The notes beneath the pieces are model-generated. The model was not told where the DNA came from, made no database searches, and was given only the letters and a program-made list of their open reading frames with translations. Positions 1-61,700 of a stretch of 64,000 nt of DNA are shown here, piece after piece. How positions within the stretch are numbered: position 1 is the stretch's first letter; every line of letters starts with the position of its first letter. The translations under genes were made by a program, and so were the position numbers. The DNA is from Micractinium sp. NFX-FRZ (lineage: Eukaryota > Chlorophyta > Trebouxiophyceae > Chlorellales > Chlorellaceae), in contig JAPTJF010000024.1 of the NCBI GenBank assembly GCA_029339195.1, positions 124,001-188,000 of the forward strand, given 5' to 3'.

Positions 1-2144
1 CACGCGGGTGGAGGCCACGCGGGTGATGATCTGGCATGAGGGGAGGAGGGGATGGGGATGGCGAGAGGAATGAGGTGGCATGGGTGGGAGGGAGGAAGCG
101 GCAGGTGAGGTTACCATGCCTCCCAAGGGCCATGCTTGCTGCCAGCGCACGGCCACTTTGTGCCCCTCAACCCCGCATCGGTACCCGCACGGGCCCACTC
201 GTGTGTGCGAAACGGCTCCACCACACAGGGGGGGCACCACCGAAGGCTGTAGCCCGCAATGCTCCCCGAAACCCTCTCCCAGCAGATGCACAGCCTGAGC
301 TATGCTACATCAGCATGCTCCCGAAAACCCTCCCCCAGCAGGCGCACACCCAGAGCTATGCTGTCCACCAAAGTGAGTGTGTGAGCCCCACCTTAAGGCT
401 CTCCACCACGCCGGGCACCACCTCGTGCTCCAGCCCGCTGTACTCCCCCTCCGTGTTCTCGCGAATAGTCACCAGGTTGATGTTGTCGTACCGCGTCTTG
501 TAGCCGGGGATGCTGCAGCAATGAGTGACACACAGGCAGAAACAGGCACACACAAGGTTGGTTCAGCGCAGCGGGCTGTCACCAGCTCGAGGTTGCCGCA
601 CCGCGTCCAGTGAATGGGATGCTGCAGGCGTGAACGGGAGCGCGACGAGGGCAGGTGCACAGGGGCGGGCCAGCCGGACAGGGCAGGTGTCCGGCTGGCC
701 CGCCCCTGTGGACAGGGCAGGTGTCCGGCTGGCCCGCCCCTGTGGACAGNNNNNNNNNNNNNNNNNNNNNNNNNNNNNNNNNNNNNNNNNNNNNNNNNNN
801 NNNNNNTGTGGACAGGGCAGGTGTCCGGCTGGCCCGCCCCTGTGGACAGGGCAGGTGTCCGGCTGGCCCGCCCCTGTGGACAGGGCAGGTGTCCGGCTGG
901 CCCGCCCCTGTGGACAGCGCAGGTGTCCGGCTGGCCCGCCCCTGTGCACCTGCCCCTACACCGCACAACGCCGCACCCAAGGCAGGGATGCACGTTGCAT
1001 ACAGCTCCAGCCCACCCCTCCCACGGACAACCAAATGCACACGTGATTATGTGCGCTCACGCCCCGCCCCCCGCATGCCTGCGGGAGGGGCGCACGTCGG
1101 CGTACAGCCCCAGCTCCTTGCGCAGCCTTATTCCTCCCGGAGGCCACAATGCAGTCGTGCCCCCCGCGCACCTCAGGCAGGGGCGCACGTTGGCGTACAG
1201 GCCCAGCTCCTTGCGCAGCGTGAGGTTGAGAGAGCGGAAGCCCTTGCCGATGGGGGTGGCCATGGGGCCCTTCAGCCCAATGCGGTTTTTCTGCGGGGGT
1301 GGAAGGGAAGGGCGGGAGGGGGCGGCAGGGAGGGGAGGAGGCGGGGTGAGGGGCGGAGCGAGGCAAATGTGCCCGGCGCCTAAACCTCGAGAGTCGGCTT
1401 GCTGCACCAACCCATTCCCCGTGCCTGCCTGCTGGCCGGCGCAGCACAGGCCAACCAACCGCCCAGGCGCCCTGCCAACCAACCCAGCAACCACCAGCAA
1501 GGGGGGCAGCGGCACGCACCAGCACGGAGTCCAGGTTCTCCCGCGTCACAAACGAGTTGGTGCGGGGGTCCACCTCCTTGCCAATCTCCTGCATGTCCCA
1601 CTGGATGGGCGCCCCCGCCTCCTTGAAGATCAGCTTCACCGCCTCAGCGATCTCGGGGCCGATGCCTGCAGGGGTGGCACGGGTGTTTCTGAGCGGTCAT
1701 GCTTGGTTGTGGTTGTGCGGGAGCCGAACAGTGGGGTGCGGCGGGCGGGCAGGCGGACAGCTGGCAGACAGGCCGAGGAGGCACAGCAGAAGGGGGCGGG
1801 GCGCCAGGGGTTTGAGGCCCTCCAGGGGCTGCAGCACAGTAAGCTTCCAGTTGAATTGTTTTCAGAGCACTGTAGCGCCCAGGGCAACAAGGGCCACTTA
1901 CAACTGCCGGCGAGACCTGCAGGCGGCAGGCGGCGAGTCAACCCTCGCCGCCGCTGACAGTGGCAGTGGGTCAGCGAGCGCGAAGCGCCCTCCCGCAGCG
2001 CTCCTTACCGTCGCCGGGGAACAGGGTGGCCGTGATGGGCTCCTGGGTGCTAAAAGCGCGCAGGCCCATGCTGCTGGTGCTGTTGCATGTGGCGGAGCTG
2101 GCCCGCAGGCTCTTGAGCAGGGTATTGGCAATCGCCGACCGCAT
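1..2144 (-). CDS. IDH: NAD-dependent isocitrate dehydrogenase, mitochondrial (5' part; 3' end off window)
   Basis: Oxidative decarboxylation of isocitrate to 2-oxoglutarate in the mitochondrial TCA cycle. Exons on the minus strand: 2009-2144, 1520-1665, 1172-1290, 392-512 and <1-30; all joins keep phase. The start at 2144 opens a basic, Ser/Ala-rich presequence ([16 protein letters not shown]). Then come the nucleotide-site segment FPGDGIGPEI, the substrate-binding stretch [16 protein letters not shown] and the signature [16 protein letters not shown]. The segment ESLKIITR resembles catalytic (IDH3-alpha-type) subunits more than regulatory ones. The gene leaves the window about halfway through, so the C-terminal half is not seen. 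Intron 3 (513-1171) carries a minisatellite, a sequence gap and a partial copy of exon 3. Divergent from the gene at 2485. The family call is firm; the catalytic-subunit call is likely. Confidence 0.93.
651..953. repeat. 34-bp minisatellite with hairpin arms inside IDH intron 3
   Basis: Direct repeats of a 34-bp unit (starts TGTGGACAGGGCAGG) begin at 707, 741, 807, 841, 875 and 909, in exact 34-bp register on each side of the gap. A 30-bp segment at 651-680 is the perfect reverse complement of 924-953, so the array is bounded by inverted ends. At the left edge 658-680 and 688-710 form a perfect 23-bp stem with a 7-nt loop. The unit is GC-rich and probably caused the gap at 750-806. Confidence 0.95.
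750..806. other. Assembly gap (57 N)
   Basis: Unresolved bases within the 34-bp minisatellite. The repeats on the two sides are 66 bp apart (741 to 807), which is not a multiple of 34, so the true copy number and gap length are unknown. Confidence 1.
1087..1125 (-). repeat. Diverged copy of the end of IDH exon 3 inside the intron
   Basis: This 39-bp block matches 1180-1218, part of exon 3, with two differences. It lies 93 bp away in the following intron. On the minus strand it reads [13 protein letters not shown], against [13 protein letters not shown] in the exon. It does not continue into a consistent donor and reading frame, so it is scored as a partial duplication rather than an alternative exon. 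Confidence 0.85.
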
Positions 2145-3641: not shown

Positions 3642-6168
3642 TCACACTTTCTGCACTGTGAACCGGCAGCACGTGTCGCCCGCACTGATAGCTGCCGCGC
3701 GCGCCGCCCGCACTCCCTTGTATGGGGTCTCAAACCAGATCTGCATCCAGCACAGGCAGAGAAGCCCAGCGACACGCAGATTAAAGTCAGGGCAGACAGG
3801 AGGTTAGTTGGACATTGGCTGGGAAGTAGCTGCGGTGCTGCTGTGAACGCTGCTAGTTTCTTACTTCCTGGTAGAGGGCAGAACAACAGGTTCAACAGCA
3901 TGCTGCCATCCCACGTGGTCCTGCCTGCAGCAGCACACGCTGCGGGCCATGCACGGCATGCCGCCGCCCGCACCTGGTCCTGGCTGCAGCAGCAGCAGGC
4001 CGCCAGCTGCGGCTTGCCCTCAACAATGAAGAGGTCGTGGTAGAGGCAGCGGGTGATGGTGAGGCTGGACTGCAAGCGGAGCAGGAGGTAGGCAGAAGGG
4101 GCAAGCAGTGGAAAGCCTGGAGGCAGGGCAGGGCAGGGAGCTGTGGATGCTGAGCAGGACAAAGACACCAAGGAGGATGCATCGGGCAAGGGAAGGAAGG
4201 TGGATGGTAACACGCAGCGGGCGGGCGGAAGTCCACAGTGAAGGGCACCTCACATCTGCAGCCCTCTCCTGCTCCCTCACTTGCCCTTACCTCTGCCTCT
4301 CCCCGCGCCTGGTTGTCTCTCAAACCCTGCCCCCAAGTCCTTGCGCAGCTGACGTCTTCCCTTACCTCCCTTCCTCTGGCCCCCCACCCACCATCCCCAC
4401 CCACCTCTGCCTCTCCTCGCTCCAGCTGGCTCTCAAACCCTGCCCCCAAGTCCATCTGCAGCCCCCGCAGGCGCGTCGCCAGCGTGGCATAGCCGTCGCG
4501 GTGCATGAACTTTGTCGCCTTCATGAGGAAGCGCAGCGCAGCGGCGGTCTTCCCTCCCATGTGCTCTCGGATGATCTGTGGGTGGGGTGGGGGGCGGCGC
4601 GAGTCGTAAGTCGTGGCAGGCAAGGCCCCTACTGGTACCAGTGCTACCATGATGCTGTGCCGCAAATGCCAGCCTGCCGCCTCTGTCACCCGCTGCATGC
4701 ATGCTGCTGGGCCCTCCCCTGGTGCTGGGCCCTCCCCCCCGGCTGTACGCCTCTCGGGTGCACAGTGCCCCTGCCACCCAGCCGCACCTGCAGCACCTCG
4801 CCCTCGTCCCTCAGGTACGGCAGCAGCGCCTTGTGTGTGGCCAGCGCCAGGCAGGCGGCCTGCGGGCGGGCACGCAAGTCAGCATGTTCCCAAGGCTTGC
4901 CTCACAGCTTGGTCAAGCCCAGGAATGGGTTAGGCCATAGGCGAAGATGATGTGAAGAGGCGAAGATGACGTGAAGAGCTACCTGCTGTAGGTCAAAAAT
5001 GTCCCCACCGCCCAGCCTGAGCTGGGTACTTTGAGAACATAGCATGACTCCTGGTCATTCGTGGCACACCTGCAGGTGCGTCTCTGCACGCTCATCTACC
5101 GCCGCCGCAGCGTGCCGCACCATGGCTGCCTGGTACTCTGCTTCTATGGCTGCTCGCAGCTCCAGCTCCCTGCCTGCCAGCTGGTGGAACTGCCTGCAGG
5201 GATGGGGGCAAGTGAAACACGGAGAAGCACACGGGCGGGGCCGTGAGGAGCAGGGGAGGGATGCTTGGGGGTGCAGCGCAGCGCGAGTGGGGGCAGCTCT
5301 GGCGCAAGATATGCGCTACGGCGGCAAAGATCACTTGCACCAGGCTGTGCAGAGCCTTTCCAGTGCGGCACTGTCGCTGCATGCACAGTGCTGCACCTGC
5401 AACAGGCCTTGCTGTGGGGGCGGATGCGGCACCGGGCCGGCCCCCCTGCTGTCCGCTCGTGCGTGCACACTCACTTGCACCGCCCATCCACCAGGCCCTT
5501 GATCCACCAAGTCCGGTTCTTGTCCTCCAACCAGTGCCGCACGCCGGGCGCATACCTGCGGCAGCCATTTCCATGATGTGTTAGGTAGAGGCAGAGGCAC
5601 AACAGTCAGAGTTCATGTCCTCGCCCTATTACAGGGGCAGCACCAAGCGGTGCCAGCAGCAAAGCTCAGGGCGGCCTGTTAGCCCTGTAAGAGCAGGGCC
5701 ACGCGGCAGCAAGTTTGACGCATGGAAAGCAATCTCAAACATGTGCAAGTACAGAAGTTTCGTGCCTCAAGCACAAGCAAGGCAGGACGAGATGGAGCAG
5801 CCGAGCATAGGTCGGCTGCCCGCGCGGTTGAGCAGCAGAGCGCCACTGCTTGATGATGCAGAAGCAAGGCTAACGAATCGCCCTGCTGTCTTGCACGTCA
5901 GCACTGTCCAGCAATCAAGCGCAGGCTCGCCCTACCTATCCAACCAGTGCGATGCACCCTCTGGCCCGCCGCCAGCTAATAGCGGTGGCGGCAGTGGCGG
6001 CGCTGCTGACTGTTGCGCGTTTGCAGACCGCTGCACTGCTGAACCGCGCCCGCTTGGCCCCGGTGCTTCAGAAATGCTGGAAAGAGCTCGGGAGAGGCCG
6101 CCAGCGAGCAGTGGGCCGGCAGGGCAGGGCGCCAGGAGCCCGAGAGCCTTTCGTGTTGCCGCCAGCAT
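3642..6168 (-). CDS. Organelle-targeted protein similar to L-2-amino-thiazoline-4-carboxylic acid hydrolases
   Basis: Exons: 5936-6168, 5475-5555, 5070-5193, 4788-4859, 4214-4575 (possibly split by an intron at 4249-4404), 3974-4064, 3642-3740; phases agree throughout. The product is 353 aa if the 156-nt segment is coding and 301 aa if it is spliced out. Residues 1-75 form a presequence (MLAATRKALGLLAP, then LSRALSS), more mitochondrial than plastid in look. The conserved C-terminus has TRCLYHDLF, a CCCC run followed by SQDQIWF, and a final GDTCCRF. That layout of Cys-containing motifs resembles the ATC-hydrolase family, known in bacteria for 2-aminothiazoline breakdown. The substrate in algae is unknown, and the family call rests on motif resemblance from memory. 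Divergent from EME1. Confidence 0.6.
4289..4461 (-). repeat. Tandem exon-edge duplication in the hydrolase-like gene
   Basis: Blocks 4289-4348 and 4403-4461 are diverged copies of one segment 114 bp apart. Both contain the core CTCAAACCCTGCCCCCAAG and both end (minus strand) in GCAGAG followed by a usable GT donor. The left copy has the better donor (GTAAGG). The interval between the donor at 4404 and the acceptor at 4249 is 156 nt, a multiple of three with no stop, so splicing and read-through are both open. Confidence 0.8.
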
Positions 6169-6435: not shown

Positions 6436-9400
6436 ATGGGCGGAGACGTCGTAGACCTGTGCTCCTCCGACTCGGGCAGCGACTCTGAGGACGACCTGCC
6501 GCCTCTGGCCTCGCTGACAGCGCGCCTGCAACAGCGAGGCGCCGTATTGCCTGAAGCAGCAGCTCTCACAGTGGCAGTGCCACCCGTCACAGGCAGCTCG
6601 CAACAGCCAGCTGCCGCCGCTGCCGCCCGGCCGCCGCTGTCGGCGGTGCACAACCACGTGGGCGCAGGCAGCCTGTTTGGCAAGCAGGGCGGCAGTGGCA
6701 GCGATCCGGCACCGGAATCGCCGCGCCAGCAGTACCACAACCAGCAGCAGCGAGAGCAGGGGCAGCGGGCAGACGAGGGTGGGCCGAGCAGCCAGCCGCG
6801 GCGCGGCAAGCGCGCAGCGGCGCGCCCTCGCCTGGCCCCGCTGTTTGGAAGCGAGGCCGATGGTGATGAGGAGTGGCAGCCTGGGCCCGGCGGCTTTGGA
6901 GACAGCCAGGAGACGCTGCCGCTCTCACCACCTCCTGCAGCTGCCCGTGGCGGCAGCCAGCCCAGCAGCCAGCCCCGGGCCAGCCAGCCGCCATCTGCCA
7001 AGAAACCAAAGCGGCCGAGGCGCTCAAAGGAGGAGATTGAGCGAGACAAGGCGCTGCAGGTGGGTGTTCATTGCTGCTACCTGTGGGCAGCAGCAGCGTG
7101 AGCGTGGCTTGGTGTACGGCATGTGGGGCATATGCTGGTTGCCAAAGAGAAGCGGCAATGGGGCGGTCGGAGATGGGCAGGCGTTGCGTTGCATTTCTTA
7201 GCAGTACTCCTGCCGGTACCGCCCCGCCCCGTGCACTCTGCCGGCGTAGAGTGTGGAAAGGAAGGCTTCTGGTTGTATGGTTCGCCTCTCATGCTCCGGC
7301 TCTCGTGCCATGCCCTAGGCTCTTCTGTATCCCCCTGCTGCACTCTGCAGGCGAGGCAGCGGGAGGGCAGAGGAAGACCGACGCGTGCTGCTGCCCGGCC
7401 AAGCTTCTTTTTCGTCCCACCCCTTGCACCCTGCAGGCGCAGCAGCGGGAGGACCGGAAGGCTCAGAAGCAGGCTGCCACCCAGAAGTGGACGCTGCAGC
7501 AAGTGCGGCTGCTGGTGGACGCGGCGCTCGTCAGCAGCGGCGCCCTGGGGGTGGGCATGCTGAGTGAGTGGGGCGGGGCGGGGGGCGAGGGCAGGCGGGG
7601 TGCACGGATGTGGCCAACGGCTGCGGTTGCTGGTCAATAGCACCTTCTCACCATCAACCCCATCCCTCTCCCCGTCTAGCCAAGCTGGAGGAGCACAGCT
7701 TCCTTTCGGAATGCTAGCATCAAAAGAACTCAAGGTGGTCTGCCTCATCAAACTTGTTAAGTTCCTACCCGTCCATGCCTGTGTGCAGCCAAGCTGGAGG
7801 AGCACAATGCGGGGGCGGCCCAGGAGAAGAAAGTAAATTACCTGGTGGCTCCTTTGGACCTAACCCCCTACAAAGCGCTGCGCTGGCAGCGGCGACGCCT
7901 GGTGGGCGCAGGCGGGGGCGCGGGCGCCGACGGCGGCGCCGGGGCCTTTGCTTCGCTGCCCTCGAGCCAGGCGGCGGCGGGGGCGGCAGCGGCGGGGTTG
8001 CCGTCGAGCCAGGCGGCAGGGCTGGGCACGCAGGCCAGCGGGAGTTCGCTGGAGGAGCGGTGGGAGGAGGAGCCGCACGTCATGATTTGCTTCCAGGTGA
8101 GAAGGAATGAAAGCCGCGTGCATCGCCGCGTGTGTTTCCTTCTTACTTTGTTTTGCTTGGGTGTGCCACGGAGATGCGCGGCCGCCTGCCCTCGCTCGCT
8201 TCCCCGGCAGCTGAAGCGGGGTTGCACACACAAACGGCCCCCCTCCACCTACCCGCATCGATTGCAGCTGATCGACGCTCTGCTGCACACCTTCCTCCAT
8301 GGTACTTGCATGCATGTTCCCACTCGCCGGTGCCTTCACACTGCCGCCCGATGTGATGCATTTGTGCACCTGCCGCCCCAGCAGTTCATAGACGCGGTGG
8401 CCCACACCTTCCTCCATCTCTCATGCCACACTCCATGCTGACCTGCGTGCCCCCAAATCGCCTGCAGCCCCAGGAGTTTATTGACGCTGTGCTGCGCGAC
8501 CGCCTGGCCTCCCTTTTCTCGCTGCTGGAGCGGCGTGCGGCCGGGCAGCGCCCCCACCTGCTGGTGTGCGGGCTGCATGCCCACGTGGTGAAGACGGAGC
8601 GGGCGCAGATGAAGGCGGTGTTCCGGCCGGGGTCACAGGTGTGTGCATGTGGGTGTGTGTTTGGGTGGGGGTGGGGGTGGGGGGTGTTTGCGCACACCAG
8701 GATCACATGCCATGTGTGTGTGTGTGCGGTTTTGCGCACATTGGGGGACAGGCACGCCGCCCACCCAGCGACTCAGCCTGCTGCCCCGCCCTGCCCCGCC
8801 CCGCCCTGCTGCGCTGCCCTGCTGCAGGTGCCGGTGCAGCGGTCGGTGCAGCAAACGATCGAGGACTTTGTGGCGGGGCTGGCTGTGGAGTGCCCGCGCC
8901 TGTGCTTCAGGGATGTGGTGGACGCGGCCCAGGTGAGGGACGTGGTGTAGTTGGGGGCGGTGTGGGGGTGAGGAGGGGCGGTGTGGGGGTGAGGCGGACT
9001 CCAGGGTAGGAGGGTGGCGACTGTGGGCTGCTGCAGACTCGGCAGCAGGGCAGGGCAAGGCGGGAGTGACGGCTTGGCGGGGCCGGCAGGTGCTGACCCC
9101 AACTTCCGCAGCGGGGGCAGGCACTCCTAGCGGCACGCACAGCAAAGCATCGCCCACTGCGGCACCTGAGAAGGCAGTGTCGTGTTGCCACCACGCTGGC
9201 CTGCCTGACCCTGCTGCCCCCCTGCCCTGCTGCCCCTGCTGTGGTCTGCCCAGGCGGCGCAGCACGTGCGGCTCATCACCACAGCCATCGCGACTGTGCC
9301 GCACAAGGAGACGGTGCGCCCCTTCTGCTGCCTGCGCTGCCGCCTGCTCGTGTGCTGCCTTGCTCTATTGTGCACTCTTGCCGCAGTGATGCCCACAAGA

Positions 9401-10989
9401 GGCGGTGGGCACTGCCTGTGGCGTCCTGTTTTGTGCTGCAGCTGCTCTTGGCCATTGCTGCGCACCCTGTAGAGGTGGTGCACCCCAATTAGCATGCGTC
9501 ACAGACCTGCTGGTGCCGCCTCCGCCGCTGCCGCCGCCACCGCTGCTGCAGCCGCTGTTTGAACCCCTGGCTGTGTCGGCGCCCCTGCTGAATGACACCC
9601 GCGCCTTTCAGCTGCTGCTGCTGCTGCTGCTGCTCTGGCCCACTAGACGCAGCAGATCTGTGCTAACAGCTGCTTGGCGGTGTGCTGCCGCCCCCTGCAG
9701 GACGCCACCCTCTTCCTGCGTGCCCACGACAAGACAACGTCACAGGTGGGGGCCTGGTGCCTGCACGCATGCACGCCTGCACGCATGCCCCCTTTGCCTT
9801 CCCCTGCCCTATCCGTTCCAGCCACCACGACTGCTCCACATCGCACTGCGCACAAGCACGCCATACATCCAGGCACTTCCACCCCAGCTTTTCACTTCTC
9901 CCGTGCTGCAACCCCTCACTAACCTGTTCCTCAACCACCCCTGTGCTGCTGTCTTTTACCAGCTGGGCCCATCACACCCCACCCTGCCCGGCCTCCCTCC
10001 CGCCCTCCCCTCTCCCCTGCCTGCCGTCCCTCACCAACCTGCCCACCAACCACCCCCCTATGCTGTCGTCTGCGCCAGCTACCCCCTCCACACCCCACCC
10101 TGCCCCTTCTCCCCCTCCCTCTCTCCCCTGCCTGCAGTCCCTCACCAACCTGTTCATCAACCACCCCCTGCACGACCGCGGGCTGGAGCTGGTGGCGCGC
10201 AGCCTGGCAGTGGTGCCCACCGGTGAGGGGCTGGTGGGCCCGCTGCCTGAGTGCCTTTGCTTGTTTTTGCAGGACAAGTGGGCTGTGCTGGGGCTCACGG
10301 CGCATAGCCTGGCAGTGGTGCCCTCCGATGAGAGGCCGGGCATGCTGTGCTATGCTGCGCAATCCATGCTGGCTGTTCTGTTTTTGCCCGCATGTGGGCT
10401 CATGCTGCCGTGAGGATGGGGCCACTGTGGGTGAGGGCAGAGTAAAGCCAGGTGCCCCGCCCCAGCTGACCGTGCACCGAGGCTGCCCCTCGGTTGCAGT
10501 GCCGTCCTCCCACAGCCTCGCATTGCCTCACAACCTCTCCTGCAGTCAAGCCGAACGGCGCGCACCAGCTGGCCACGCACTACGGCAGCCTGGGGGGGCT
10601 GATGGACATGCTGTTGGACCCTTCCAGGTGGGCATACAGTGCAGTACAGTTGCAGCACAGTACCGTGCAGTACAGTGCAGTTACAGTACAGTGCAGCACG
10701 GTACTGTATTTGCTTTGACAACCTGTTTGGGTGCGCAACGTCCAACTGCTGAGCTGCTTCCTGCCCCTGCCCCCTTCTCCTGCCCCCCCTTCACGAGATC
10801 CCCCCCAACAACCCCGACCCCCTTTGCGTGTGCAGGGACGACAAGAGCAAGGAGGCGGAGGTTTCGGAGCTGCGCAACGTGGGGGGGCAGCAGCGGCGCG
10901 TGGGGCCCGCCGCCGCGCGCCAGCTGCTGCAGCTGCTGCGCAGCGCCGACCCAGACCTGAGGGTGAAGGAGGACAAGGAGAAGGAGTAG
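6436..10989 (+). CDS. EME1: EME1-like subunit of the MUS81 structure-selective endonuclease (586 aa)
   Basis: The non-catalytic partner that, with MUS81, cuts branched DNA (replication forks, nicked Holliday junctions) in the nucleus. Ten phase-consistent exons: 6436-7059, 7437-7563, 7789-8096, 8468-8638, 8828-8932, 9254-9313, 9701-9745, 10138-10222, 10546-10627, 10836-10989. Residues 1-200 are acidic and low-complexity, with a basic stretch KKPKRPRRSKEE near 195 that could be a nuclear signal. A degenerate ERCC4-like domain spans about 255-470 (NYLVAPLDLTPYK, PHVMICFQ, PHLLVCGLHAHV) and lacks the ERKxxxD catalytic motif, as EME1 does. The helix-hairpin-helix tail holds YGSLGGLMDMLLDPSR and RRVGPAAARQLLQLL. 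The ATG at 6436 begins a typical disordered N-terminus. Several introns carry extra copies of neighbouring exon edges. The identification is good; no MUS81 lies in the window. Confidence 0.85.
7341..7376 (+). repeat. Copy of EME1 exon 2 acceptor edge inside intron 1
   Basis: Matches 7427-7462 (acceptor CTGCAG plus the first codons of exon 2) at a distance of 86 bp. The copy keeps the AG but its downstream sequence has diverged. The real exon is assigned at 7437 because only it continues in frame to the next exon. Confidence 0.75.
7677..7699 (+). repeat. Copy of EME1 exon 3 acceptor edge with an in-frame stop downstream
   Basis: Shares AGCCAAGCTGGAGGAGCACA with 7787-7806, 109 bp further on. 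Using this AG would give KLEEHSFLSEC and then a stop, so the upstream acceptor is decayed or would yield a truncated protein. Confidence 0.8.
8264..8418 (+). repeat. Two copies of EME1 exon 4 acceptor edge
   Basis: 8264-8300 and 8377-8418 both read like the first ten codons of exon 4 (LIDALL, FIDAVA; the exon has FIDAVL), and both then share CACACCTTCCTCCAT, which the exon lacks. The two copies resemble each other more than the exon. Confidence 0.75.
9906..10177 (+). repeat. Three tandem copies of EME1 exon 8 acceptor edge
   Basis: Units start at 9906, 10021 and 10132 (115 and 111 bp apart). Each has the core CCTCAC(C/T)AACCTG; only the third continues as coding sequence. The inter-copy sequence is also related (CACACCCCACCCTGCCC occurs twice), so whole intron-plus-exon-edge units were duplicated. 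Confidence 0.85.
10299..10337 (+). repeat. Copy of EME1 exon 8 donor edge
   Basis: AGCCTGGCAGTGGTGCCC recurs 106 bp after the same stretch at 10201-10218 near the end of exon 8. In the copy the donor GGTGAG has become GATGAG, so it is dead as a splice site. Confidence 0.8.
10636..10706. repeat. Imperfect GTACAGTGCA-type simple repeat in EME1 intron 9
   Basis: Starts nine bases after the exon 9 donor. Variants of ACAGTGCAGT and GTACAGT alternate, including inverted versions (CAGTACAG / CTGTAC). No coding potential. Confidence 0.7.
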
Positions 10990-11148
10990 GTGGGGGCAGC
11001 TGCTGGTTGGGCAGCAGCAGCATGTCCGCAGCCCTTGGCGGTGGCGGACGCCACCCCCCCTTTAAGGCGCACACCCTGCCCCCTTGGCGCAGCCTCCTGC
11101 TTGCAGCTGCACCTGCTGGTGTGCACACACAGCTGCTGGTGGCTTGGC

Positions 11149-11153
11149 TGTAA
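11149..11153 (+). terminator. Possible poly(A) signal for EME1 (TGTAA)
   Basis: The motif is 160 bp after the EME1 stop codon, on the coding strand. Confidence 0.35.
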
Positions 11154-11384
11154 GCACATGGCTTACACACGTGCACGCTGTAGTGAGCCAGATAGGGGCG
11201 GCGCGTGCAGAGATGAAACAGGGACTGACGGGGCATGTGTCAGTCAGTGGCAGCTGGGGCCTGAGCCTAGAGATTGGCCGCCCAGCCGCAAGAGGTGGGT
11301 GTAACAGAAATGAAGGAGAGTGTGGTTGCGGGACTGCAGCAGCTTGCAAGGCTTGCTGCGCTGCACACCCGAGGGGCAGAGAGG

Positions 11385-11830
11385 TGCTGCCTGACGAGCA
11401 CACCCATAGAACAAGGCTGCTGGTGGTGAAAGGTGACGGGGTGTCATATGAGGAGAAGGGCACAGGAAGGGTGCTGCTGACGAGTACTGCACACAAAAGG
11501 TCAGGGTTGCTGCACGGGCAAAGGGGCCCTGTTGGGGGAGGACGGGCACACAGAAGGGGTGCTGCTGGCGAGTAATGCACAGAGGGTGTTGCTGCTGATG
11601 GGCGGTACCAGGGGCATATTTTGAGGGAGTGTTCAGAACAGGCTGCTGCTGAAGAGAAGTAGTGCACAAAAACGGTGTTCCTGAGGGGGGGTGCACGAAC
11701 AGGCGATGCTGACAAAGCGACGCACATTCACGTGGCTGCTTATTTTTTTGAACTGTTAGTGGGGGAATGTCGAGAAGGTGTTGCTCCGGAAGGTGAACAG
11801 AAGAGGTGCTGCTGAGGATCCATGCAGGGA
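11385..11830. repeat. Degenerate interspersed repeat (GGTGCTGCTGacGAGTAcTGCAC-like)
   Basis: Seven or eight imperfect occurrences of a roughly 25-bp motif built on GTGCTGCTG, often followed by (G)AGTA and TGCACA, spaced 40-80 bp apart. No coding frame runs through them. They are decayed enough that copy number is a judgement. Confidence 0.55.
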
Positions 11831-11969
11831 ACAGGGTGATGTGCCATGCAAGGAACAGGTTGATTTGAGCTATGGTGCTCTTAAGTTGCTGCTGTGTAGG
11901 TGTGCAGCACTCTAGCTGCTGATGGTGCCAAGCCGTTGCCTCAAGCCATCGTGTGGTGGCCGCCCGCCC

Positions 11970-14900
11970 TCACTTCAACGGGAGCACGCTCGTGCACGTG
12001 TTGTCAGGGCTGCACGTCTGGGTCAGGCCGCAGTCCGAGTTCCTGTAGGTGTGGTAAGGGGAGCGGCGCGGGCGCAGGGGAGTGCGCACACTTCAGAAAA
12101 GCTCGGCAGCATGCATGGATGTGAGGGCAGGTGCAGCGCAGCGCAGCACAGCACAGCACAGCACAGCATACCAGGCCAAACACGGCACAGTACGGTGCAT
12201 CACAGGCAGCAAAGCACCAGCATGCCGGCAGCATGGCCACATGCAGCACTGGTGGCACTTGTTGTCACCGCACAACACAGATCAGCAAAGCGCAGCGCAG
12301 CATAGCACAGCACAGCACCTGCAGCACTCGTGGCACTTGTTGTCGCTGCACAGGTGGTTTTTGCCTGCGGGGCAGTGAAAGCGCACACAGGGACGCGAAT
12401 TTGTGGAGGTCACTGACACGTGCATGCAGCCCTCCACGCATACCTCCGGCACCCTCCCATGATGTGTGCCGGTGTGGCTGCACTGGCCCTAGGGCCGGTA
12501 GGCCTACCCTGCCACCCAAGCCGGGCACCCGCCCAGCGCCTGCCTGCCCGCCCGCCTCGCCCCTGTGCATGCAACCCGGCGCAGTGCATGCGCACAGCCT
12601 GCCTGCCTTCCACCACCCGTGGCGGGCAGCCGTGCTATCAAGACAGCGCCTGCTTAACCTGCACCAGGGGCTGAGAAACCCACCATAGAGAATGGCGGCC
12701 ACCCTCACTGCTCAAGCTCGGTCAATAAAAACCTTGAAATACATTAATGGGTATTACTTCACACACCTGTGGTGGTGCACGTGCACACTCCGCTGGAGCA
12801 AGACATGTTGTCCTTGTCGGGGCAGGCCCTGCCACAGAAGCCGCAGTTGTTCACTGTGGAGAGGGGCGTCTCACAGCCGTTGCTGCGCACGCCGTCGCAG
12901 TCGCCCAGAGGAGCGTTGGCGCCTGCTGGGGGCAGCACGGCGGGCAAGTGGGGGGGGTGAGTGGGCGAGTGAGAGGGCAGCAGGCGGGTGGGCGGGACAC
13001 CAGGGATGCAGCAACCTAACACACATTTGCCTGCTGCAGCAACGGGTCCTGCAGCATGAGCGGCGTGTGCATCCATGCTGGGCCCACTCACTGGATTTGC
13101 AGCGGCACTGGTGCTCCACAGTGCCGGTTGCCGACACCACACGGGTGCACGCCTCCGAGTTGTGGCACGCGTTGCCGCACTGGGGTTGGGGGTCAGGGTT
13201 TAGAGGATGGGGTGAAGGCAGCGGAGCGCACGTGCGTCCCCCTTGCCAAGGGGGCGTGTAGGCGCAAGCGGTGCGTATGCAGCAGCGAGTGGGGCTTGCG
13301 CTACAGGCATGCAGCAGTCATGCTCTACAATAGGCCGGTAAGCAGTCCTCAGGCATGCAGCAGGCATGTGAGCAGCGGGAGCTGCAGTGTGCAACACAGT
13401 CAGGGGCGTGGCACACAGCATGTGGGGCTCACCGTGCCGCAGTTGCTGGAGGTGGTGAGGTCGGTGGCCTCTGCTCTCGCAAACAGGGAGGTGGAAAGGT
13501 ATGTCACGTCTACGGTCAAGGCTGGGGGACTGCGTGGGGTTGCCCACACATGCAGGAGGCACCGGCGAGAGGGGCACCTTGAACCATTTTCGGCATGCCA
13601 TGCTTTGCGTGCCAGGCTTGCTCTGCTGGCAGACAGTGTTCTGCCACCCTGGCGGTGCCCTGCACATCTCTAACTCACTGCAGACGCATGTGTTGCGTGG
13701 CCCGCACGTCTCGTTGGGCTTGCAGCGACGGTTGCAGCCGCCGCAGTTCGTGTTGGTGTTGAGGGAGGCCTCGCACCCTGCAGGCGGGCGGCGGGCGGGA
13801 GGCGGGCAGGCTCGGGTGGGAGAGGAGGGGGCACCCTTGGCTGCTGTGCATACAGATGGGGAGAAGTGCGCATGGCTGTCTGCTGCCCATCTAGCTGCCA
13901 AATGGGACAGCAGGGGTGCCCATTCCCTTCAAGGTCTTCCAACAGCCTGGTGCACAAATATGTCGCTCTCGGTTGGGGGACGCCTCACCCCCCACCCTAC
14001 CCAGCAGGTTGGGTCAGCGCCTTGCCTGTGAGCTGCATCCCGTCGCAGTCAGCAAAGCCCTTGTTGCACACGCACTGCCCCCGCACACACATCTCGTTCT
14101 TGTAGCACCTGGGTACGGGGGGAGGGCAGGGGCAGGCGGGGGCACAGGCTGGCGCATGAGGGGCAGGAGCGAGTGTGCATTCTACAGCGCCTGCCTCGGT
14201 TGGGGCAGGTGGGTGTGTTGTACCCTACGACGCCAGCAAACAGGGGGCTGCTACCAGCCGCCAGCCACCGGCGCTCTGGGGCAGGCCACGTGCACCAGCC
14301 ACCGACCCTCAAACACCGAGCTGAGCAGGCGTTACGCATACCCTGACTAGGGTACCGTATCCTCACCGGTTGCCGCAGCGCCCGCAGTTGAGGTTGGTGT
14401 CCAAGGTGGACTCGCAGCCGCCTTCACGTTTGAAGCAGTCGCAGTTGCCAAACCCTGCGGGCAGAGGGCGCGCCGGAACGGTAGGCTGAAGCCGGCGGGT
14501 CGGTGCAGTGCTTGGCAGTGCTCTGCAGGCGTAGCTTGGCAGGCGCAGCTCGGCGGGGCTAGCAGGCACAGCACAGCGAGCCTGGTCCGTCTGAGAGCGC
14601 CTGCCCGGGGGAAGGCCTGAAGCCTGCAGACCTGTGTCCCACACTCGACCCCCTGGTGCCCGCCAGGTTGCCTCTTCATCTGATTGAAGCCTTCCCTGGC
14701 AGCGCTGCGAGGCGCCTCACCTCTCTTGCACACACACCGGTTGAAGGCGCACTCCATGTTTGGGGGGCAGTGCATGGAGAAGCAGCACTCCCGGCAGACC
14801 GGCTGGTTTTCGACCATGCACAGCCGGGGGAAATCTGCATCGGATTGGGCAGCACATAATGATGTGGGGTGGCATCAGGGAAGGGGAGGACTAGATATGG

Positions 14901-32200: not shown

Positions 32201-32554
32201 GGGGCTGGGTGAGGCGGGCGGTGCGGCGGTGGCTGCGCCCCTGCCTGGCTTGGCAGACGCAGCCGGCCCAGGTGCTTTGCCGGTGCAGCAAGCTATCGTG
32301 GCCAGCAGCCCAGCCAGTGCATCACCCCTACACACCACCACACCAACACAACAACCGATGCGCCTGCTGCAGACGACGGGGAGGCGGCAGCGGCGGCGGC
32401 GGTGGCAGCGGGCGCCACAGAAGGCGGCCAGGCACCCCGCCTCTGGTACGGCAGCCACTCCCTGCTGGGCGAGTGGGCCCATGTGCTGCAGCAGCCAGCG
32501 GCGGCAGCGCCCAGCGGCGGCTCCGGCGGCGCCACAGTAGCAAAGCCTCAGTAG
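29201..32554 (+). CDS. Alpha/beta-hydrolase (lipase-like), probably plastid-targeted (396 aa)
   Basis: Exons: 29201-29393, 29477-29885, 30122-30215, 30653-30731, 31101-31177, 31571-31622, 31901-32005, 32373-32554; phases agree. The fold is shown by VVILPGLGNN (first strand and oxyanion turn, about residue 107), the nucleophile elbow LLAHSAGG near 190 (AxSxG rather than GxSxG), VSLGSPQ (strand 6 side) and the late segments GDGVVPEPS and AYHSPLG, which carry the likely acid and His. It is like plant plastid proteins annotated as alpha/beta-hydrolases with PGAP1-like features. Substrate unknown. In-frame ATGs at 29201, 29219 and 29360 all fit; the Arg/Ala/Gln-rich first 90 residues look like a transit peptide. 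An extra copy of the exon 3 end lies in intron 3. Confidence 0.72.
30403..30430 (+). repeat. Copy of hydrolase exon 3 donor edge
   Basis: GTGATTGACCAGG recurs 205 bp after 30204-30216 (exon 3 end, VIDQ). In the copy the donor GT is GC. Confidence 0.75.
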
Positions 32555-43761: not shown

Positions 43762-43793
<32 letters not shown>

Positions 43794-52700: not shown

Positions 52701-55700
52701 GTTGCAGGAGCTCCCACACAATCCTCCTCCACAGATAGCCACTCTGTAGTGCGCCGTCATTACATAACGAGCTCACCTGCTGTCCTCCCCAGGCGGTGGG
52801 GGTGCGTACAAGTCGGACTCAGGCGGCGGCGGCAGGTCGACCTCGCTGCACGCAAGCCAGGTGGGATGAAATATTATATGGGCAAGAAGCGGCTGATGAG
52901 CTGTACCAAGCGGTCTGCTGGGTCATGCAAGGGCGGAGCGCAAATTGCTGCTGCGAGAGATCGCTCTGCGGGGGCATGTTGCTGCGCTCCCTTACGTGGG
53001 CGGGGGAGGAGGGGGGGAGCCATTGGGCGGGGGAGGGTAATGTGGCGGCGGCGGGGAGGAGGCGGGCGGGTCGACGGTGGCGCTGCAGGGGCAAGCAGGG
53101 CCAATGGTTTGGGGGCAGGGCCAATGGTTTGGGGGCAGGGTTCAAGAATATAGGCAACGTGCTTGAGCATGCTGTGCACGCCATGCGGCATGGTGGCCGG
53201 CCTGGCAGGCAGGGACGAGCTGCTGCAGCAGCCCTGGACGGGTCGCGCTGCATTGCACGCCAGCATGCAGGCAGGAACAGGTCAGCCTCACCCGCTGGGC
53301 TCGAACAGCTGGATGCGGTGGTTCAGCCTGCAAGGACGCAGGTGGGGCGTGGCGCGCCAAAAGGGCGGGCACAGCACGTGTGGAGAGGGGCCACAGGCAT
53401 CGGCGGGCGCCGGCAGGCACGCCACGCACAGCTGTCCAGCTGAGGTTGTGTGGCTGCCTGCCCCACTCATACCCCACGCACAGTTGTCCCCCGGCCCCCG
53501 CCTCCCAACCCACCTCACACTGTGTCGCGCCACACTCGTCACAGTCACACCAGGGCAGCTGCCTCCCCTGGCGCCCCTGCCTCCCTCCCCTGCTGCCCCT
53601 GCCTGCCTCCCGCCTCACCTGTCTGCCACATGCACCCGCCCACTACTGGCGACCCAGCACCGCAGCAGCGGCACTGGCAAACTGCCCCTCTCCCTCACCC
53701 TGCTTCCGTCCTCACTGTGCATCACCCTCCTCCGCCTGTCTGCCTCCCGCCCGTCTCACCTGTCCGCCACATACACCTGCCCGCTGCCATCACGCGCCAT
53801 CGCAACAGCAGTGGGGCCATCAAACTGCCCTTCGCCGCTGCCCTCGCTGCCCCAGGCCGCCAGCTGCTGCCCGTTGGCATCCCACTGGACCAGGCGGTTG
53901 TTGAAGGTGTCTGCAATGATGATGCTGCCGTTGGGCCCCATGCACAGGCCGCTGGGGGTGTCCAGCTGGCCGGCCGACGATCCGCGGCTGCCCCAGGCCG
54001 CCAGGAAGGTGCCGTCGGCGCTGAACTTCTGCGGGAGGGGGAAGCATGTGGCAGGGAGGCGGTTAGTGCTCGAGGGCGGCGTTGGGAGGAGGTTGGGGGG
54101 AGGATGGGGGGCCCCGGAGCGGGCTCAAGTGCGACACCCCTGCTGCCACCCTGTGCCCGCTCATCTCCCGCAATGCCCACCCCACCCTCTCCACACCACA
54201 AGCAAGCAGGCAATGCGTGCCTGCCTCGGTCTCCTCTCCCCACAATCTCCTCTCCCCACACACACGGCCACCCCGCCTGCCCCCTGCACGAACCAACCGT
54301 CCCCTCCGTCAACCCCAACCCCTCCCCCAACCTCGTCCGCTGTTGACCACTACCCTTCACAACGCCCCTGTGGCTGGCAATGTTCTTGGACCAACCTACC
54401 TGGACCCTGTGCCTGATTGCATTGCTTTCCCAACAGTGCCACCTGCCTGGACCCTGTTTCTGCCTGCATTGCTGGCGTGAAACGCCTACCATGGTTTTAA
54501 TATAAACCCACCCACCTGGATCCTGTGGCTGCCTGTGTCTGCCACGAGGACCGCCCCGCTGGCGCTGTCCACGGCCACGCCTCGGGGGTTCTGGAACTGG
54601 CCGGGCTCCGTGCCTCTTGAGCCCCAGGTGGCTGTGTAGTCATTGGAGGCATCGAACAGCACGATGCGATGGTTGCCCCGGTCCGCCTGTGGGGAGCAAA
54701 TGAAGGGAGGGTGGCATGGGATAGTGTGGGTGCGGTTGCAGGAGGTCACACGGCTTCTGCTGCCCGCTTTAGGTTGCGCAGCAGGCAGCACGGGCACGAG
54801 GCGTGCGCAGCAGGCAGCACAGGCACGCAGCATGCACACAGCAGGCCGCTTTCTGTGCGGCCGTCCCAAGAGCGGTCTCACTCAACACACACGGTTCATC
54901 CTGGGCCACCCACTCCCAGCCCTGCCCGCAGGGCAGCAGCAGTGCACGGCACGCACAGCAGGCACGGCGCTCACCACATACAGGCTGTCCTATTACCACC
55001 ACCAGCCCCAACCACATGGCAGCAGCAGGCACAGCAGGCACAGCAGGCAGGACTACTCACCACGTACACGTTGTCCTGCCCATCCACCGCCAGCCCCCAC
55101 GGCAGGTTGAGCTGTCCTGCGCCAGACCCCAGGCCTCCCCACCAGGCCAGCCTCTCCCCCTCGGGCGAGAACCTCAGCAGGCGGTGGTTGAACGTGTCGG
55201 ACACGATGACGTGGCCAAGGGAGTTGACCGCCACCCCATACGGGTTGTTCATCTCCTGCGGGCCGTCCCCGGTGCCAAAGCCGCCCCAGGCCAGCTGGGT
55301 GGTGCCGTCCAGGCCCTGCCGAACGATGCGGCTGTTGCCCTTGTCGGCAACGACGAGGAAAGAGCTGTCGGGGGCCAGGGCCAGGGCGGTCGGTTCGAGG
55401 AATTGGTCGGAGCCGGAGCCCTCGGATCCCCAGGTGCGCACCAGCTGCAGGGTGGGTGGGAGGAGGGGGGAGCGGGTGGTTGTTTGGACAGGCTCGTGTG
55501 GGTGAGAGGGTGGGTGGGGGTAGGTCGGGGAGGGCAGGGCCTAGGGAGGCTGGAAGGCGCGGCGGGCGGGGTGGCACCGCAGGCAATGCCCTCGGGCGCC
55601 GATACAAGGGGCATGCTCGCATGGAAGTGGAACCGAGCACATATGCGTCAATTTTGTTCCCAAGGGAGCTGGGGAGCTGCGCTCACCCGGAAAGGCCCGT

Positions 55701-58700
55701 CGGGGACCACAGGCGGGGGAGGGGGCGGCGGGGAGCGCCGAGGCGGCGGCGGGGGCGGCAGCGGAGGCGGCGAAGATTGAGCAGCGGGCGGCGCTTGAGC
55801 GGGGGGTGGGGGTGGGGGGGAGTACCTGCAGCAGGGAGCAGGGCGTGGTGTGCATTCAGTTAACGCAAAACTGGGGTGATCAGCAGTCCGACAAGACGCT
55901 CCCAGTGCCTGCCACAGCTGCAGCAGCTGCAGCTCAGTTGGCGGCAGCTGCAGCTCAGTTGGGAGTCGGGGGGCTGGGAAGCCGCAGCACTGGTACACCC
56001 AGCAGGCACCTAGGGTGCGCATTTCCAGCCTGGGGCAGGCTTCGCAAGCACAGCAGCAAGGTGTGGCACAGGCGCCACGCTCAGCGGCTGGGGGTGTGCA
56101 CGTGCCCATGGCGGCGGGGGGGAGGGGGGCGGCGGCGGCAGCGGCTGCTGCGGGCGCTCACTCTGGGGGTGGGGGCTGCTCTGGGTCCACCTGTGGGGGT
56201 GAGAGGTCCTCGAAGCTGCACCACAAACACATGTACAGGAGGGGAGCAGGTGCATGGTTGATTCAACGGAGAGGAGGCGGAGCAGTGCGCGCCCCACAAA
56301 TTGGAAATTGGAAATTGGAAATACAAGGGCTCGCAGCCAAGTGTGATGGAGGAGAGGGCAGCCAGGTGCCGGGCGTGCTGCCAGCCATCTCCGCCTGCGC
56401 CCCAACGACAGGCCAGCGCTGCACAGGCCAGCTGCACAGCACACCGCCGCTTTTTGCTGGGCAGTGCGGCATCGGAAGGATTGGGCGCGCATGCCATTTG
56501 CTGTCAGGATTGCAAGGCAGAGAGCGCGCTACTTGCGTGCTGCCATGTGCGTGCGGCAGCAGGGTAGAGGGCGGATGCTGCGCAGCGCAGCGCACCTCTC
56601 TGGCGGCCATGGGGGCAGCGGCGGGTTTGGCGGCTCGGGTGGGTCGGGTGGCGGGCTGGGCGGGGGCGGCGGCGGCCACCTGCAGCAAGGGAAGGTGTGG
56701 CAGGTGGGGGGACCAGCTTGCAGGCAGGGCAGCCAGAGGCATGGACTGCTGTGCCACCGCTTTCACGACTGCCGACACTTGCCTGCCGGCTGGCTGGCCG
56801 GCTGGTGGGCCGGCAGGTTGGCTGGCAGGCATGTGCAACCACAGCAGGGACAGCATGGCAGCTCACGTGGTGGGGAGGAACTGCTGCACCCGGTTGTTCA
56901 AACTGCATTGGAGGGGAGGGAAAGCTGGGAGGGTCAAAGCAGTATGCATCAGGCGCCTCAGTATAAGGCTGGAACGGGAGTGCAACAGGGCGCTGCCGTG
57001 CCACACAGCTGCCGTGCTGCGTGCTTTGCAAAGCCCTACCTGGCCGCCGCACCCCACCCATGCATGGCTTGCATGGCTTGCCACCCCACCCATGCATGGC
57101 TTGCATGGCTTGCCACCCCACCCCTGCCCCTCCACCCACGTCAGCACTCCCCCATGAACATCCCACCTACCAGCCTGGTGCACCTCCCTTGCCCTGCCTG
57201 GCTATCCACGCCCCCACCCTCCCTCCACGTCCCGCCATCCTTCACCGCCCCACAACGTGTATGCCCGCCTGCCCCCCTCCCCTGCGGCCAGCCCCGCCCT
57301 GCCTGCTTCCCTGCCGCACTACACCCTCGCCTGCGCACCGTTCAGCCTCATCCCTCCTCCCCCTGCCCCGCCCACCAGCAGCCCACCTGTCGACAACGTA
57401 CACCTGCCCTCCGTCAGCCGCCGCCACTCCAGTGGGCGAGCTGAACTGCCCGTCTCCCTCGCCGGGGCCGCCCCACTCCGCCACCTGGGCGCCCCTCGGG
57501 CCCAGCACGACCACGCGGTCGTTCAGGGTGTCTGCAACGTAGATTGAGCCGTCGGAGGCGACGGCAATGCCGCTGGGTTGGTACAACTCTCCGGGGCCGG
57601 GGCCCTCAACGCCCCACGCCGCCTGGAAGATGAGCTGGACGTCGAACTTCTGCAAGGATATAAAGGGGTCGAGAGCGCAGGGCGGGGCGAGCGTTAAGAC
57701 TCAGGTGGTGTGGCAGATGAGCTGGGGACATCAAACTTCTGCTGCCCGTCAAAAATAAAGAAAGTAACGCGCACGGAGGGGCGGGACTTTGAGTCGGTCG
57801 GCCTGGAAAGGAGCTCTCTTGACGTGCAGGCTATCATTGGGCCAGCAAGGCGGACGCAACACATGGGAAGGGAGGGGGCACGTCAGAAGCGCAGGCCCGC
57901 GGGAGGGGCAGCGGAGTGCGGGCGGTGGCCGCAGCACGCACAGCACAGCAGGCATGGCAGGCATGCACGCTGTGCGTGTTTGGAAGTGACCCTGGGTGCC
58001 CTGTGTCACCTGGATGCGGCTGTTCAGCGTGTCTGACACGTAGATGGATCCCTGGCCGTCCACCGCCAGCCCCCTTGGGGAGTTGAACTGCGGGCAGAGG
58101 AGAGGCAGGTGGCGGGGCAGTGGTGGGCGGGTGAGCGGGGCACGAGCGAGGATCTGAGGGCTGAGCGCGCCCTCCCTTTGGTCCGGCCTATTGAGCATGC
58201 AGGGGGTGATTGCGAGCTGCACACCTCGCTGGGTCCCGCCCCCTGCTCGCCCAGCCACGTGATGTACTGCCCAGCGGGGTCGTACTGCACCAAGCGGTGA
58301 TTGCCGCTGTCGGCCTGCAGGCCAGGAACGTGTAGGGGTGGGAGGGAGAAGGTGGGGTGGGGTGGGCGGGACTTGGCAGAGGGGGGCGAGAGGCATGGAA
58401 GGGGCATGAGGGCAGGGCTGGGTCTGGTGGAGAGCGTGGGCAGCCCTGCAGGTGCAGGCGTGCCCGCCGCCTGCCCCAGCAGCGAGCAAGCCCAGCTGGA
58501 AGCCCGGCAGGCACGGCCCAGGCGGCCGCTTCCACGCCAGCCCTGCTGACGACAGATCACAGCAGGCACAGCAGGCATAGCTGGCAGCCCCCCACTATCA
58601 CTCAAGATTTAGGCCATCCACCGCCAGCCTTGACATGACTAACACAGCATGCACAGCATGCACGGCATACGCCGTGTGGTCATCATGCCCAACACAGCAG

Positions 58701-61700
58701 GCGCAGCAGGCGCAGCAGGCGCAGCACTCACGACATAGATGTTTTCGTCCCCGTCCACTGCCAGCCCCCAGGGAAGGTTGAACTGCGTGTCCCCCGCCCC
58801 ATAGCTCCCAAACTGGCCCAACAGCGTGCCGTTGGCCGAGAAGCGCTTGATCCGGTGGTTCAGGGTGTCGGCCACCAGCACGTGGCCTTGGGAGGTGACC
58901 GCCAGGCCGCGCGGCCCGCTGAGCTGCGCGCCGCCGCCGCTGCCGGGGCTGCCCCAGGACAGCTGGACGGTGCCGTCCATCCCGTGCCGCACGATGCGGC
59001 TGTTGTTGGTGTCGGCGACGAAGAGGGCATCGCCCGAAGGGGCCAGGGCGATGGCAGTCGGATTAACAAAGCCGACCTTGGTGCCCCACTTGCGCACCAG
59101 CTGCATGAGGGTAGTGTGGGGGTGGGGTGGGTGGGCAGAACGGCAGCGGCATGGCAGGCAGAAGCACAGGGTGAGTGCACACCGGGAGTCGAGGCGCTGT
59201 ATGGGGCGTCAGTGCAGCGCAGCTCGCAAGCGGTACAGCCTGGTGTGTGCGAGGCGACAGAGGTGTGTGCGAGGGAAACTCCAGGAGCGTGTGCGACCCG
59301 TGCGGCACACGCACAGCCTCACCGAGTAGGCGGAGAGAGGGGGAGGGGGCGGGGCGAGCGGGGGCGAGGGGGAAGGCGGCGGGGAGGGCCGGGGAGGCGG
59401 CGGCCGTCTGCGAGGGCAGGACGCATCAAGGCTCAGGGGTGTGACTCCACACTTGCCCGGGCGGTAAGGCACAGGGGGGGAACATGTGGCGGCAAGTGAC
59501 CCCCTTGCTGCCTAGTGTCACTGGCTACCGCTGCCTACCAGCAGTGGCCACCGCCTGCCCGTGACATCAGCTGCCCGTCCAGAGCCCCTGGCTCAACCTC
59601 CTGTTGCCGTCCTCAGCCCAGACCCTAAAGCTGCAACCTTCTGCTTCTCCTGACGCTGCCTGATCTTCACTCATTGCTCTGCGCAGTCCATTAATCCTGT
59701 TCAAGAGCTCCGCTTCCAACAGCACGGGCAGAGCATAGGCTGCAAATGCAGTGTCTTACCTTGGAGGTGCCGGCGGAGGCGGGGAGCGGCTGCACGGATC
59801 ACGGGAGGGAGGCGGAAGGCGGAGTGTTGGCTGGTGTCCAGGCGGCAGCACGCGTGGCGCCCCCACATGCAACACGGACTGCACTGCAGCCAGACACAGG
59901 CCCTCACTCACCCGACGGGCACAAACAGCTGCACGCGCGGCGCCCCCGCTTGCAGCACATAGATGCCCCCGCTGCCGTCCATCGCCGGCGCCACGTCCGT
60001 GGGCCAGAACAGGTCCCCATCCCCCTCCATCTCATCCGCAGGGCTGCCCCACTCGGACAGCTGCTCGCCCTCGGGGCTGTACTGCACAACCCTGCAAAGG
60101 TAATGAGCACATGGTTAACAACAGATCCCAGGGGGCAGGGGGGGGCCACACCGACAGCTGCTCGCCCGCGGGACTGTACTGCACAACCCTGCATGGCGAT
60201 GAGCACACGTTGTGGTCAGCAACAGTCCCCAGGGGGTGGGGGTGCCCCACTAGGGCAGCTGCTCGCCCTGGCATTGCAGCACCCTGCAGCATCCTGCGGC
60301 AAGTGAGGCACTCGTACGCCGACGCAGGCGACATGCCAATGACTGCAACCCTGCAGGGCAGCAAGCTTGGAAGGGCCACATGCACAGCTCCTGCAGGGAC
60401 ACTGCAAATTCAGCACCCTGTGCGGTGGCCTGGCTAGCTGCGTAGCCTGGCGCCACCCACACCGCCTGCCGTGGGCGCTCCAGGCGCCTTTTTGCACCCG
60501 CGCCTCCCTGCCCGTGCCCCGGAAGCTAATGCCAGCCCAGGTGCCCCACGATGGAAGGAGAAGCACCCACCGGTTGTTGTCCATGTCGGCCACATACAGG
60601 CTGCCGTCCTGGTCGACGCGCAGCCCGCGTGGCGAGCTCAGCTGGCCCTCCCCTGACCCGGTGCTGCCCCAGGTCGCGAGGAAGGCGCCCTGGGGGCTGA
60701 ATTTCTGCGGGGCGGGGACATGAGGGAAAGACGGGCAGAGCCCGGGACATGTGTTTGACTGGAGTCACAATTGTGAATGGAGGCGGACAGACACGTGCCA
60801 TTGCAAATGCGCTCCCGCCCGCAGCACCGCCCACACCCCCCAGGATAATTGACCAACTCACGCAGATCCGGTTGTTGTCCGAGTCGGAGACGTACACGTT
60901 GCCGGTGGCAGGGTCGACCGCCACGCCCCGCGGCCCCTTCAGCTGGCCGGGGGCGCTGCCCAGGCCACCCCACTTGAGGAGGTACATTTGGGAGGCGCTG
61001 TACTTGACGATGCGGTGGTTGTACAGGTCCGCCTGCGGGGCATGTCGGTCAAGGAAGCGCGTTGTGTCAAGCCAAGCCATAGTAAGAGCTAGCGGTCAAC
61101 AAGCGTGGAACCATGTGTGTCACGAGGCGGTGGTTGCACAGGTCGGCCAGCGGGGGCATCCAGACAAGGAGGCAGTGAACTGCAATGTATGAGGTGCCAA
61201 CAAGTGTGAGGCGCTGCACGTGACGATGCGGAAAGGTCTTCCGGGCCGCTACCACCCCACCGCCCTGCACGCACGCATGCCCCGCTTACACCGGCACACA
61301 CGTTTATGTGTACTGCCATGCTCACATGTACACTGCTCCTTACGGGCCCCTCCTGCCGCTTAACCCACATACTTCGCAAGCCCCTCCCCCTGCCCCCTGC
61401 CCCCGCTCACCACATACACGCTGTCATCGGGCCCCACCGCCACCCCGCGCGTGTAGTTGAACTGATGGTTCCCCGTGCCCCGGGAGCCCCAGGTCGCCAG
61501 CAGCGTGCCGTTGCTGGCGAACCTCTTGATGCGGCTGTTGGTGGTGTCGGCCACCTGTTGGGGGAAAAAAGGGGGCAGGTGGTGGTGCGGGCATGGCAGA
61601 GGGGAAGGGGATGTTGGGGAGGGGGCACCTGGGCACGAGCTGGCGCCGCCGCAGCGGCCTCCCGCCCCGCCGACCGCATGCGCCCCGGCACGGCACCCCC

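Follow-up and report, generated by a model that had tools for sequence, protein, structure and literature searches.

In a 64,000-nt stretch of the Micractinium sp. NFX-FRZ genome assembly (bases 124001-188000 of contig JAPTJF010000024.1; hereafter the window), many introns contain diverged copies of the edge of an adjacent exon, which we refer to as echoes. We consider it likely that these echoes are what is left, after decay, of ordinary tandem duplications with units near 100 bp that were placed roughly at random, and that no targeting of exon-intron junctions need be invoked. The findings suggest that a sizeable part of the intron sequence of this intron-rich, green-alga-like genome derives from plain tandem duplication of units of about 100 bp.

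Many introns carry copies of an adjoining exon edge

We analysed 324 kb from a single assembly (66.07 Mb in 838 contigs), namely the window, 200 kb from ten other contigs, and an extra 60 kb, 40 kb of which flanks the window and 20 kb of which is from contig 1. Genes were predicted with a two-strand hidden Markov model (HMM) with phased exons and introns that was self-trained, label-free, on the window and the 200 kb; the extra 60 kb was excluded from training. The splice signals learned by the HMM were sharp (roughly CAG/GTGAG and TGCAG/G, with the slash at the junction). Complete introns in the training set numbered 501, of which 115 belong to the window, with a median length of 215 bp; the held-out 60 kb gave a further 122, making 623 in all. 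For every junction, we compared the nearest 60 nt of exon with the intron beside it by local alignment, and an echo was called at a score of at least 28.

In the window, 23 of the 230 junction sides (12 donors and 11 acceptors) were echoed in their own intron, compared with 0.45 in mismatched introns and 0.5 in dinucleotide-shuffled introns. Across the training set there were echoes at 52 of 1002 sides (2.3 with mismatched introns and 4 with the reverse complement), and the held-out 60 kb gave 23 of 244 (1.0 with mismatched introns). Three of these last 23, and thus 3 of 75 in total, were dropped before the final counts as they came from a minisatellite miscalled as an exon. (This array, at 12683-12899 of the joined segments L029-L030, or C24:116683-116899, has a 64-bp unit present in 3.4 copies at 92% and was partly called as coding exon.) The remaining 72 echo sides (42 donors and 30 acceptors) lie in 69 of the 623 introns, and 28 of the 75 multi-exon gene models have at least one exon-edge echo. 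With shuffled introns the expected number of sides is 1.9, and direct nearby copies inside single genes therefore exceed chance. A count made free of gene models likewise found local direct repeats in excess at the echo offsets.

An earlier, sequence-only reading of the window had described echoes in at least twenty introns of seven genes, at donors and acceptors alike and mostly 80-140 bp from the original. It had named beforehand an equal frequency in shuffled introns as the outcome that would tell against them. The echoes proved real: we found them in 22 of the window's 115 introns, in seven gene models, at both kinds of splice site, and they were far from equally frequent in the shuffled control. 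The spacing was upheld as well, with offsets of 80-140 bp for 46 of 72 sides overall and 13 of 23 in the window; only 5 of 72 were below 60 bp, and the preferred offset was near 104 bp. Steps of about 110 bp can recur, as in the copies at 9906, 10021 and 10132. That copies often keep AG or GT was borne out too, in that the splice dinucleotide is retained in 23 of the 42 echoes that reach the junction (11 of 23 donors and 12 of 19 acceptors), and echoes thus leave many splice-like dinucleotides close to real sites. As had also been claimed, the frame is not kept, since offsets modulo 3 show no preference (29/22/21).

Echoes as probable remains of decayed tandem duplications

The sequence-only reading had attributed the echoes to short tandem duplications across junctions that would lengthen introns. 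This account is favoured by the offset mode, by the lengths of the introns and by similarity that in aggregate crosses the junction. Introns with an echo at an offset of 50-160 bp (n = 44) have a median length of 295.5 bp, compared with 212.5 bp for echo-free introns, and are thus longer by about one unit; with the offset subtracted, the median falls to 198 bp. The exon part of the echoes has a mean identity of 0.88, with copies diverged by about 10-20 per cent. On the intron side, similarity scores sum to 1002 when 738 would be expected (standard deviation 37), with 13 of 38 echoes reaching p<0.05 singly. The weaker match on this side would be expected if exon-echo pairs change on one side only, whereas intron-intron pairs change on both and also acquire insertions and deletions. 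Consistent with this, a decay simulation fitted to the exon-side scores alone predicted intron-side detection of 0.34-0.37 (0.34-0.36 observed) and a mean intron score excess of 7.9-9.6 (8.1-8.8 observed); for the echoes that fall short singly, it is this simulation that accords with a tandem unit extending into the intron. Moreover, third codon positions mismatch more often than the others (93/576 vs 130/1148, p 0.006; 16.1% vs 10.2% and 12.5%), as would be seen if the exon is conserved and its copy free to change.

We suggest that the duplicated units, mostly of 80-130 bp, would each join some exon sequence to some of the intron beside it, and would land roughly at random. Those internal to exons would mostly be purged by selection. 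A duplication across a donor would leave the intron with an extra exon end followed by repeated intron sequence; were the outer splice site to stay in use, the protein would be unchanged, the intron would gain one unit and the duplication would survive. The exon-adjacent copy, being coding, would be maintained by selection, and the inner one would decay freely. With decay confined to a single copy, junction pairs should thus be recognisable for longer than intronic or intergenic ones. Duplications of about 100 bp might arise at the DNA level by, for example, the fill-in and joining of staggered breaks, which is our guess from the literature. On this account the exon edge acts as a conserved yardstick, and single-copy decay allows events to be counted and roughly aged from one genome; the exon-edge scan is applicable to any eukaryote.

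Junctions need not be targeted

At offsets of 70-140 bp we counted 151 pairs, 61 of them exon-intron, 56 intron-intron, 5 intergenic and 29 exon-exon. We simulated duplications placed at random over exons, introns and intergenic DNA, scaled solely to the 61 exon-intron pairs. Random placement predicted 34-45 intron-intron pairs, 7-11 intergenic pairs and, if exonic duplications were harmless, 96-136 exon-exon pairs. The shortfall in the last class suggests that exonic duplications are mostly removed.

The sequence-only reading had placed the duplications across junctions; that junctions are their target finds no support. A splicing- or RNA-linked process that copies the exon edge with its splice site into introns might be proposed on the grounds that similarity is much stronger on the exon side than on the intron side (the latter not significant in 25 of 38) and that exon-intron pairs form the largest class at these offsets. 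That asymmetry is, however, predicted by the decay of plain tandem copies; several echoes extend clearly into the intron, and intron-intron pairs are, if anything, too many. Since the decay simulation yields the same asymmetry, and the numbers of intron-intron and intergenic pairs are approached by placing duplications at random while exon conservation eases the detection of junction copies, we dropped targeting, which we regard as improbable. Retention of echoes as functional decoy or alternative splice sites would fit the 23 of 42 dinucleotides kept and the one echo that is called as an in-frame exon; it seems very improbable given that retention is not above a rough neutral expectation (about 0.64 at 20 per cent divergence, by our own arithmetic) and that the offsets have no frame preference.

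An artefact of assembly or gene models, in the form of collapsed haplotypes or miscalled exons, could be argued from the assembly gap in a repeat (57 N at 750-806), from the minisatellite called as an exon and from the doubtful exon at 25690-25722. It is nevertheless very unlikely to be the explanation: the copies are diverged, the signal persists without gene models, and junctions are confirmed in two conserved enzymes. The collapsed haplotypes that the sequence-only reading had allowed for find no support in the two segments that were searched against the assembly, 400-2200 and 7200-12400, neither of which has a long second copy; the only second matches are short and repeat-like, and copies within the window differ by about 10-20 per cent.

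Several results sit less well with randomly placed, decayed tandem duplications. More intron-intron pairs are seen than predicted (56 vs 34-45), and fewer intergenic ones (5 vs 7-11). The exon share of the unit is smaller than in the simulation (median 0.31 vs 0.39-0.44), and the aligned stretches are shorter (33 vs 37-42 columns). According to the fits, 22-24% of junction sides would carry a duplication, mostly undetected, which clashes with the base-match profiles of echo-free introns, in which no peak is seen at 80-140 bp. (The lack of this peak speaks against a vast reservoir of duplications too decayed to detect, although the profiles have limited power.) Finally, there are almost no complete duplications of recent date, the cases that would give direct proof.

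Few duplications are young

In the fitted age mixtures, the share of duplications with less than 0.1 substitutions per site is 0-3.7%. Simulations with ages uniform from zero upwards did not fit, and in the age fits a uniform spread from zero to 0.30 or 0.40 was worse by 18.6-28.8 log-likelihood units. Without recourse to annotation, the pairs of at least 95% identity and at least 40 bp at offsets of 60-160 bp comprised four that come from a 34-bp minisatellite in the window, an intergenic pair of 65 bp and a further pair of 106 bp. Collapse in the assembly could hide near-identical copies only. Copies that were diverged from birth through error-prone copying were also considered as the cause of the missing young cases; the third-position excess disfavours them.

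Echo density varies along the genome

The window has 10.0 echo sides per 100, compared with 3.8 on the other contigs (32/852; about 2.7 times, Fisher p 0.0005), and is therefore not a fair sample. The two stretches that flank it are also rich (17/164 sides, p 0.001). At the other extreme, segment L009-L010 (contig C13:40001-60000; a lower guanine plus cytosine (GC) content, 0.598, and a median intron of 137.5 bp) has no echo in 104 sides. Over 17 partly adjacent regions, the echo rate rises with median intron length (Spearman 0.74, p 0.0007; 0.63, p 0.007, with the echo introns removed) and falls with exon fraction (-0.73, p 0.0008). Note that the correlation with length does not establish cause, because the regions are partly adjacent and longer introns give more room for echoes. 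The placement fits imply 0.5-0.8 events per intron. We tentatively raise the possibility, which we think rather less probable than not, that a past and largely ended episode of frequent tandem duplication of about 100 bp, varying along the genome, gave about a fifth to a third of intron length; if so, decayed junction copies could be dated from one genome.

Relation to known intron-altering processes

Gao and Lynch (2009, PNAS; a reference in PMC3443670 and PMC3488318) reportedly found internal gene duplication in 8-17% of genes in six genomes. As in internal gene duplication, the copies described here lie within genes and cover both exonic and intronic sequence; they differ in affecting 28 of 75 multi-exon models with a mode of about 104 bp, as counted by a detection method other than that of Gao and Lynch.

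Intron gain by tandem genomic duplication is known from PMC3443670 (citing Hellsten et al. 2011), PMC4974935 and PMC2891723. There, as here, tandem duplication acts on splice-site sequence; there, however, the unit becomes the intron and the offset equals intron length, whereas here existing introns grow. The sequence-only reading had pointed to tandem duplication as a proposed route of intron gain. Intron ends that match each other across the full length of the intron, as expected of an intron born by tandem duplication, were seen at a score of 13 in no more than 2 of the 623 introns, with 0.2 expected by chance. The stronger candidate is a 104-bp intron at 17594-17697 of the joined segments L027-L028. 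(At 17068-17697 of the same segments, on C126, two neighbouring introns have similar GGCTGGCGCGCAAC-type exon ends.)

According to PMC8355091, small non-satellite tandem duplications arise from break repair and, among short (<100 bp) insertions in the human genome, are the commonest kind. The units here differ from those by centring near 104 bp, and the copies are too old and diverged for their ends to be placed or for enzymes and flanking microhomology to be read from them. Introners, described in PMC9860276 as copies of one element spread over a genome, resemble the echoes as a recurrent mutational input into introns. Dispersal of this type was not found for the two segments that were searched: 400-2200, the isocitrate dehydrogenase segment, matches only itself in the assembly, and 7200-12400 has only short repeat-like matches elsewhere. 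Among the literature matches listed, in the text they offered, we recognised no description of junction-spanning partial copies at such density. What may be new here is the density of decayed junction-spanning copies, their mode of about 104 bp and the near lack of young ones.

Echoes of the window

The echoes of the window are given in Table 1; the seven with offsets above 160 bp are less secure.

Table 1. Echoes in the window, with the exon-edge segments that they copy
Feature	Position	Strand	Copy of	Offset (bp)	Remarks
Acceptor echo	578..607	-	468-497	110	Isocitrate dehydrogenase intron 513-1171
Donor echo	1083..1126	-	1176-1219	93	Isocitrate dehydrogenase intron 513-1171; 44 columns, 93% identity
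Donor echo	3916..3935	-	3975-3994	59	
Donor echo	4291..4349	-	4405-4462	114	
Acceptor echo	7680..7697	+	7789-7806	109	
Acceptor-side echo	8175..8196	+	8493-8514	318	Less secure
Acceptor echo	9913..9941	+	10139-10167	226	Third copy between, 10021-10056
Donor echo	10287..10327	+	10182-10222	105	
Donor echo	12242..12274	-	12320-12352	78	
Donor echo	13729..13778	-	14367-14419	638	Less secure
Acceptor echo	23059..23087	-	22921-22948	139	PIF1-like gene
Donor echo	23491..23515	-	23598-23622	107	PIF1-like; intron side matches too; gap-free junction
Acceptor echo	24112..24136	-	24001-24025	111	PIF1-like; junction within one residue of solved PIF1
Acceptor echo	24548..24567	-	24468-24487	80	PIF1-like; intron side matches too; gap-free junction
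Echo called as exon	25690..25722	-	Start of exon 25433-25591	131	PIF1-like; outside the 23
Donor echo	27509..27544	-	27632-27670	123	PIF1-like; intron side matches too; gap-free junction
Donor echo	30379..30420	+	30173-30215	205	Less secure
Acceptor echo	32208..32237	+	32378-32410	170	GC-rich, repeat-like; less secure
Donor echo	46947..47007	-	47145-47203	198	Less secure
Donor echo	53619..53644	-	53760-53785	141	Intron side matches too
Acceptor echo	57711..57738	-	57624-57649	89	
Donor-side echo	59845..59875	-	59928-59958	83	
Acceptor echo	60135..60188	-	60038-60091	97	Tandem array, period 97, 2.3 copies
Acceptor-side echo	61205..61231	-	60989-61015	216	Less secure

Solved homologues back the exon edges at 6 of the 23 echo sides of the window, in a check that covered two conserved enzymes. 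At the isocitrate dehydrogenase intron, which has an echo at each end, the protein alignment to solved NAD-isocitrate dehydrogenase is gap-free. For the PIF1-like helicase, three echo junctions align gap-free to solved PIF1 and a fourth lies within one residue. The PIF1-like gene also has the echo at 25690-25722, which the HMM predicts to be an extra in-frame exon of 33 nt. In the alignment to solved PIF1 only one of the two copies is covered, and the predicted exon may be either a mistake of the gene finder or a candidate for a new exon. Among the best 120 of 7144 hits of the isocitrate dehydrogenase, two transcript-set proteins come first, followed by many land plants; together with the gene content, this is what a green alga would be expected to show.

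The GC content of the window is mostly 60-71% in 2-kb steps. The 34-bp minisatellite lies at 676-946, within the long isocitrate dehydrogenase intron, with the 57 N in the middle of the array. At 41965-64000 the HMM predicts a gene of 45 exons whose model contains an internal stop and, by eye, NHL-like YVAD repeats; it probably merges two or more genes or is a modelling error, and its protein-level repeats may explain a few echo matches, which were kept in the counts. The stretch at 12133-12328 is CAGCA/CACAG-rich, and short pieces of it recur at many sites in the genome.

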